Source of the DNA: Candidatus Methylacidiphilales bacterium
GTDB taxonomy: Bacteria > Verrucomicrobiota > Verrucomicrobiia > Methylacidiphilales > CAZTYG01
Assembly (NCBI GenBank): GCA_033875315.1
Contig: JANRJG010000016.1
Coordinates: 1 to 33,347 of the forward strand
Length of the DNA: 33,347 bases
Direction of reading: 5' to 3'
How positions within the stretch are numbered: the first letter of the stretch is position 1; each line of letters begins with the position of its first letter. Positions 33,031 to 33,347 of this stretch are shown piece after piece. A program made the position numbers and the translations under genes. A model generated the notes under the pieces. It had not been told where the DNA came from. It saw only the letters and a list, made by a program, of their open reading frames with translations, and did no database searches.

Positions 33031-33172
33031 GTAAGGCACCGAAACTCGGGGCGACAATCCCAATGTTGTGCACTCTCTTTGGCTCACACTTTCGATCACT
33101 CATTGACATAAGACCAAACCAAATGCAGTAGAAGGAATTTGAATGCTAAGAGCCTATCCGGATAACCCGCGT
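33031..33172. promoter_or_regulatory. gmd upstream region
   Basis: The region is AT-rich compared with what follows and should contain the promoter of the gmd operon on the - strand. No convincing -35/-10 pair was fixed. Composition changes sharply to GC-rich at about 33160. Confidence 0.3.
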
Positions 33173-33228
33173 GACCCGCGCTGTCGCGTGACCGCGTGGG
33201 AGCGGTACGCGACCTTACGCGGGGGGTC
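33173..33228. other. Long GC-rich nested stem-loop
   Basis: GACCC-GCG, CT, GTCGCGT, G, ACCGC, a six-base loop, GCGGT, ACGCGAC, CTTA, CGC, GGG bulge and GGGTC pair as 20 base pairs in a 56-base structure. Arms are exact within each block. It is too strong to be accidental and lacks a T-run, so it is not a simple terminator. Confidence 0.6.
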
Positions 33229-33231
33229 AAT

Positions 33232-33347
33232 AAGCCGTCCGGCGAGGCGCGAGAAGGGAGCAGGTATGAAATATACCCGTGACCGACGAGCAACGAAGCG
33301 GGGCGGCTTTTTGGCCCCAGCCCGGAGGGTGATGGCGGCACCTGCCC
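33232..33347. ncRNA. Candidate structured RNA or mobile-element end, cut by window edge
   Basis: After the long stem-loop, the + strand shows AAGCCG (33232-33237) against CGGCTT (33304-33309), a GGTAT-GAAAT-ATACC hairpin (33263-33277), a GGGGC/GCCCC hairpin (33300-33318), and GCAGGT (33260-33265) against ACCTGC (33340-33345). The last closes the segment exactly at the window edge. Some of these helices compete, as in switch-like or multi-branch RNAs. No plausible protein frame is present. It could be a guide-type RNA of an IscB-like element, an intron end, or another structured repeat; none can be shown here. Confidence 0.35.

Follow-up and report, generated by a model that had tools for sequence, protein, structure and literature searches.

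The window analysed here, the whole stretch of 33,347 nucleotides, is one complete contig (C16) of a 3.15-Mb draft genome in 42 contigs, and its right edge carries a strongly folded non-coding sequence. What kind of genetic object ends there, and why it folds so well, are the questions raised by this locus. A sequence-only reading had compared the stretch 33173-33347 with the ends of mobile elements associated with guide RNAs, with intron ends and with large regulatory RNAs.

The repeat at the contig end

The strong folding is real. At -94.1 kcal/mol, the plus strand of 33173-33347 is far more stable than its shuffled versions (mean -73.8 kcal/mol; z -4.79; 0 of 200 dinucleotide shuffles as stable), and the minus strand is weaker (-77.1 kcal/mol, z -2.3). 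The nested stem-loop described at the 33173 side, to which 20 pairs had been attributed, is present with 17 pairs in the minimum-energy fold. It depends on an insertion of about 39 nt (the extra hairpin in Table 1) that is absent from most sibling copies and found in a minority, namely those of the window, C25 and C9 and both copies of C22. The helix proposed between GCAGGT (33260) and ACCTGC (33340) is probably no native pairing, since in full-length siblings ACCTGCCC pairs with GGGCAGGT, which lies past the contig end. The element itself starts at 33150 instead of 33173, and the right edge of the window reflects a break in the assembly: C16 ends within a multicopy repeat, as judged from a blastn search of the genome with the final 248 bases of the window, which gave 41 matches, many of them at contig ends. 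By our own count, about 26 of the 84 contig ends of the draft fall inside the element; in practice, such elements break assemblies.

Copies of the repeat are located on at least 20 contigs. Full copies (for instance C8:1183-1467 and C3:183107-183386; C22:1-261 runs from the inside to the right end) are 280-285 bp long, non-coding, bounded by terminal inverted repeats (TIRs) at both ends and flanked by a TNA target duplication; no open reading frame (ORF) is found in them, and the right TIR is reached within about 285 bp of the left end. The left TIR has 37 matches in the genome with two or fewer mismatches, and its right-hand partner in full copies is CACGGGGGTTATCCGGATAGGCTC. The earlier suggestion of a mobile-element end is borne out. 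Past the contig end of the window, siblings in C8, C3, C21 and C22 continue with the complementary arm of a second hairpin, B, and the right TIR. The covariance model R1 matches hairpin A of the window with 73.6 bits (E 6.7e-18), and it matches hairpin B on the opposite strand in the loci L014 and L021.

Table 1. Features of the element copy at the right edge of the window
Feature	Position	Strand	Basis
TAA, target site beside the left end (TNA-type duplication)	33147-33149		sequence
Left TIR GAGCCTATCCGGATAACCCGCGTG	33150-33173	+	recurs at element ends genome-wide
Extra hairpin of about 39 nt TCGCGTGACCGCGTGGGAGCGGTACGCGACCTTACGCGG	33184-33222		copy comparison and fold
Hairpin A: covarying outer stem, conserved G.A-rich helix, covarying inner stem	33231-33313	+	covariance model R1 and covariation
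Conserved G.A helix, 5' strand GCGAGGCGCGAGAAGGGAGC	33242-33261	+	near-invariant columns, alignment A1
Conserved G.A helix, 3' strand GTGACCGACGAGCAACGAAGC	33279-33299	+	near-invariant columns, alignment A1
Second half, left arm (hairpin B, related motif on the minus strand); remainder past the contig end	33327-33347	+	sibling copies

Two TIR types, GAGCCTATCCGGATAA and AGAAGTCATCTCAAAAATAGG, enclose the same core in this genome. An IS5-family insertion sequence at C9:137997-138867 is bounded by the TIR GAGCCTATCCGAATAAC, which differs from the TIR of the element by one mismatch in 16 bases. Two overlapping ORFs in it specify a transposase of the IS4/IS5 family (PF13340 DUF4096, E 3.3e-21; PF01609/PF13586), and its ends do not carry the hairpin. 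This insertion sequence corresponds to TIR type 1 only; no partner for the second type was found in this draft genome, and a TIR search in an elusimicrobial genome returned short elements only. Among 116 elements, 28 show exact 3-bp repeats at their boundaries, all of them TNA, while shuffled partners gave a mean of 5.2 and a maximum of 13; many other elements have CTAG at both ends, so that the duplication is ambiguous there. Four tiny palindromes AGAGCCTATCCGGATAGGCTCT (G000:C4:57793, C30:11273, C38:239884 and C41:68223, two of them with one or two changes) have the two TIRs joined directly to each other, which looks like a deletion of the core between the ATCCGGAT palindromes that both TIRs contain.

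A short, non-coding, TIR-bounded element with a TNA duplication and, for TIR type 1, a related autonomous insertion sequence has the characters of a miniature inverted-repeat transposable element (MITE) of the IS5 superfamily. Because the TIRs are nearly the same, the most suitable reading of the short element is that of a MITE which the C9 insertion sequence or a relative of it moves, and a transposase of the C9 type would mobilize it in trans. We therefore consider it likely that the element is a non-autonomous transposable element with ends of the IS5-family type and a deeply conserved hairpin module.

The conserved G.A hairpin

The core hairpin has the form GCRAGGCGCGAGGAGGGAGC-stem-GTGACCGACGAGCAACGMMGC, with tandem G.A mismatches at regular spacing. 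The GCRAGGCGCGAGGAGGGAGC and GTGACCGACGAGCAACGMMGC strands, near-invariant in alignment A1 between the two stems, align as a continuous helix of G-C pairs with tandem G.A/A.G mismatches and one G.T in between; full elements (z -7.9 and -11.5) repeat this alternation of pairs and tandem G.A mismatches in their minimum-energy RNA fold. The inner and outer Watson-Crick stems, on the contrary, are almost free in sequence yet remain paired. Across 62 aligned motifs, double-sided changes occur at 19 of 25 pairs, 88.6% of the cells are paired against 66.3% after shuffling, double-change cells number 334 against 121 (0 of 500 shuffles), and the covariation score is 0.516 against 0.142. When the partners are slid by one base, pairing falls to 31%. 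Up to six pair types are found per position of the variable stems, and compensating changes are already visible between the two core subfamilies of this genome, for example from GTGATG/CATCAC to GTTGCG/CGCAAC. It is important to note that the search pattern preset part of the near-invariant strands; positions outside it (GC.AGGC, ..GC) are conserved too, and pattern-free model searches recovered relatives down to 28 bits.

The structure is strand-specific: in 56 of 60 motifs with RNA parameters, and in 53 of 60 with DNA parameters, the A strand gives a better fold than the complementary strand. The mismatches of the stems do not separate the two nucleic acids, since G.T exceeds A.C by only 55 to 37 (p 0.076). 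A coding reading was discarded: the conserved AGGAGGG and GTG resemble a ribosome site and a start codon, but the reading frame is lost beyond the motif. Resemblances to kink-turns, put-like antiterminators and hammerheads were weighed and not adopted.

Each MITE is usually regarded as the decayed derivative of a single insertion sequence. In the present elements the constant part is the internal hairpin and not the ends, since TIRs vary between and within genomes around a constant core, and the mismatched strands stay near-invariant between freely changing stems.

Distribution, architecture and orientation

The fold is conserved far beyond this genome. The core occurs nearly unchanged in short elements of Verrucomicrobiota, Acidobacteriota, Myxococcota, Actinomycetota, Elusimicrobiota and Sphingomonadales, in at least six phyla. 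A blastn search of 60 relatives found it in several families of the order of the window, within short elements bearing other TIRs. The pattern GCGAGGASNGAGC-N5..34-GTGACCGACGAGCAACG, run against the genome collection, gave among the matches listed Acidimicrobiia, Myxococcota, Acidobacteriota, Verrucomicrobiota, Elusimicrobiota, Eremiobacterota, Sphingomonadales and Aureimonas isolates, together with one Thermodesulfobacteriota bin and a few bins with seemingly wrong labels. Some public labels are indeed doubtful: a 'Bacteroidetes' bin (L126/L042) holds the same locus as a genome of the order of the window, and contigs of 'Bacillus sp. 2B10' carry sphingomonad-like copies (L126/L042 with L137, L141 and L145 form the doubtful set). 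For the main groups, contamination is argued against by the high copy numbers in single genomes (83, 76, 74, 58, 47 and 36 model matches). The motif is present in 21 of 289 sampled genomes of the phylum of the window and in 46 of 250 genomes of the family of Sphingomonas CFBP 13720; phage, viral, plasmid and E. coli collections gave no motif match.

Elsewhere the elements fall into size classes of about 161 bp, with one hairpin, and about 267-276 bp, with hairpin A and a related hairpin B on the opposite strand; in the latter class the distance from the start of A to the end of B is 182-190 nt (19 elements). An apparent smaller form of about 105 bp, judged by eye, is found in the acidobacterial metagenome-assembled genome ERR599097_bin.40 (L117, L119), where its ends GGTTTC/GAAACC directly prolong the outer stem and where the model has 47 matches. 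Beyond the core, single-hairpin elements have a further conserved internal loop, GAGGCGCCCG..CGGGATGNATCG, which is common to elements of Actinomycetota, Myxococcota and Acidobacteriota (L099, L104, L108, L134 and others). Single-linkage clustering of the TIRs yielded 29 groups, an upper figure because some ends are shortened. In an elusimicrobial genome, an element remnant of about 90 bp (L542, G349:C22:80802, approximately 1501-1592) lies between the stop codon of secY and the start of adk, in an essential operon, and insertion in operons is thus tolerated.

With respect to flanking genes called by codon usage, the orientation of the hairpin is unbiased (left side 54 to 45, right side 47 to 52), and a role adjusted to the transcripts of the host is thereby made less likely. 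A strand bias of 39:12 obtained by crude ORF calling was an artefact, gone with codon-usage gene calling and probably caused by stop codons that the element adds on one strand; insertion at stop codons, which had looked frequent, is accounted for by a TAG arising at the edge of the element. Regarding replication as judged by GC skew, 77 of 116 elements of a first set have their A strand on the C-rich side, a significant bias. It is also significant in 24 further single-hairpin copies (L233-L260, L508-L529), mostly from Verrucomicrobiota with two from other groups, of which 18 have the conserved strand on the C-rich, lagging-sense side. The bias is absent in 60 copies of Sphingomonadaceae and in 20 myxobacterial copies of one genome; being mixed across sets, replication-strand orientation is a lead rather than a result.

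Role of the hairpin and comparison with known systems

A hairpin with near-invariant mismatched strands between freely changing stems, in at least six phyla and without a matching family in Rfam, points to a specific partner or activity. According to the mechanism proposed here, an IS5-family transposase would act in trans on the TIRs and insert the element at TNA, while the G.A hairpin would be a folded single strand, either DNA at the fork or RNA, that serves the spread of the element itself. The hairpin would contact a factor common to distant bacteria, so that elements with one and the same core but different TIR types could make use of different IS5-family transposases. It is conceivable, and we advance it tentatively, that the G.A hairpin represents a distinct kind of functional structure, a folded single-stranded DNA or RNA read by machinery common to distant bacteria, which lets a lineage without transposase swap TIRs and parasitise successive IS5-family transposases across phyla. 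As to the acting molecule, single-stranded DNA is a tentative choice, slightly favoured over RNA, which is somewhat doubtful. A strand-specific structure in the service of the element's own spread may best describe the hairpin. It would be worthwhile to identify a factor so conserved that it reads the hairpin in all these hosts; at about 55 nt, the motif is small and can readily be mutated.

Alternatively, the hairpin might be an RNA device in read-through transcripts, acting on RNA polymerase by pausing or antitermination or on the transcript by protection or processing, with the result that the host tolerates the insertions. The better folding of the conserved strand as RNA (56/60), the remnant between secY and adk, and the fact that double elements present a G.A hairpin first to a polymerase arriving from either side agree with such a device; nonetheless, the hairpin has no orientation bias with respect to flanking genes, no linked gene class and no match in Rfam, and this explanation appears rather unlikely. 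The stretch might also be a large regulatory RNA, as had been suggested, but no linkage to a gene was seen. Somewhat less probable than the RNA device is that these are ordinary MITEs with a functionless hairpin, the core being shared by descent and by horizontal spread of one successful element. Strong folds are expected of such elements, which are short and palindromic with long inverted repeats, and IS-derived elements are known to spread between distant bacteria. However, the stems have changed almost completely while remaining paired and the mismatched G.A strands are near-invariant, the reverse of what drift or recent spread gives, and the TIRs differ between carriers.

The end of a guide-RNA element, of an IS200/IS605 element or of an intron, as first proposed from the RNA-like fold at a mobile-element end, is highly improbable, because full siblings end in a TIR some 285 bp from their start with no ORF, neither IscB nor TnpB nor another nuclease, because the ends and the duplication are of the DDE type, and because Rfam 15 returned no match over the stretch, either at the gathering score or at E up to 10, none elsewhere in the window and only a tRNA in 19 motif-bearing loci, with no HEARO or intron. 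IS200/IS605 elements have subterminal hairpins and produce no duplication, whereas here TIRs and a TNA-type duplication are found, as in the IS5-family (DDE) insertion sequence of the same genome. The lack of an ORF in full copies and of a match in Rfam also tells against an IscB/TnpB guide-RNA element of the IS607 type. HEARO, the omega RNA of IscB, is alike in being a structured nucleic acid at the end of a mobile element, and unlike in its Rfam family and its accompanying IscB gene, of which the copies described here have no counterpart.

REP and BIME sequences are palindromes of 20-40 bp, tagged by GTAG or CGTC, whose stems measure 5-13 bp; the GTAG class is moved by tyrosine transposases and the CGTC class has no dedicated transposase (PMC3733652). 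They share with the present elements a high copy number, a palindromic nature, a presence in many phyla and a frequent arrangement in inverted pairs, but an identity with them is ruled out by the size of the elements (about 100-285 bp, with an 80-nt G.A-mismatch hairpin), most of which have TIRs and TNA duplications (definition in PMC3733652). Closer are the prokaryotic MITEs derived from IS5-family insertion sequences, which have been reviewed together with Chunjie of Geobacter uraniireducens (PMC10969869): they are likewise shorter than 500 bp, multicopy and without ORF, with TIRs, a target duplication, a stable fold and a partner insertion sequence acting in trans, and Chunjie sits in an operon, as the elusimicrobial remnant does (PMC10969869). 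The MITE is thus of a known kind, while its hairpin module, extending across TIR types and phyla, appears to be undescribed in the searchable literature; neither the motif string nor a description of the hairpin was found in the largely open-access literature searched. To our knowledge, each described MITE family has a single type of TIR and is confined to one species or group, whereas here one hairpin core is common to many TIR types across phyla.
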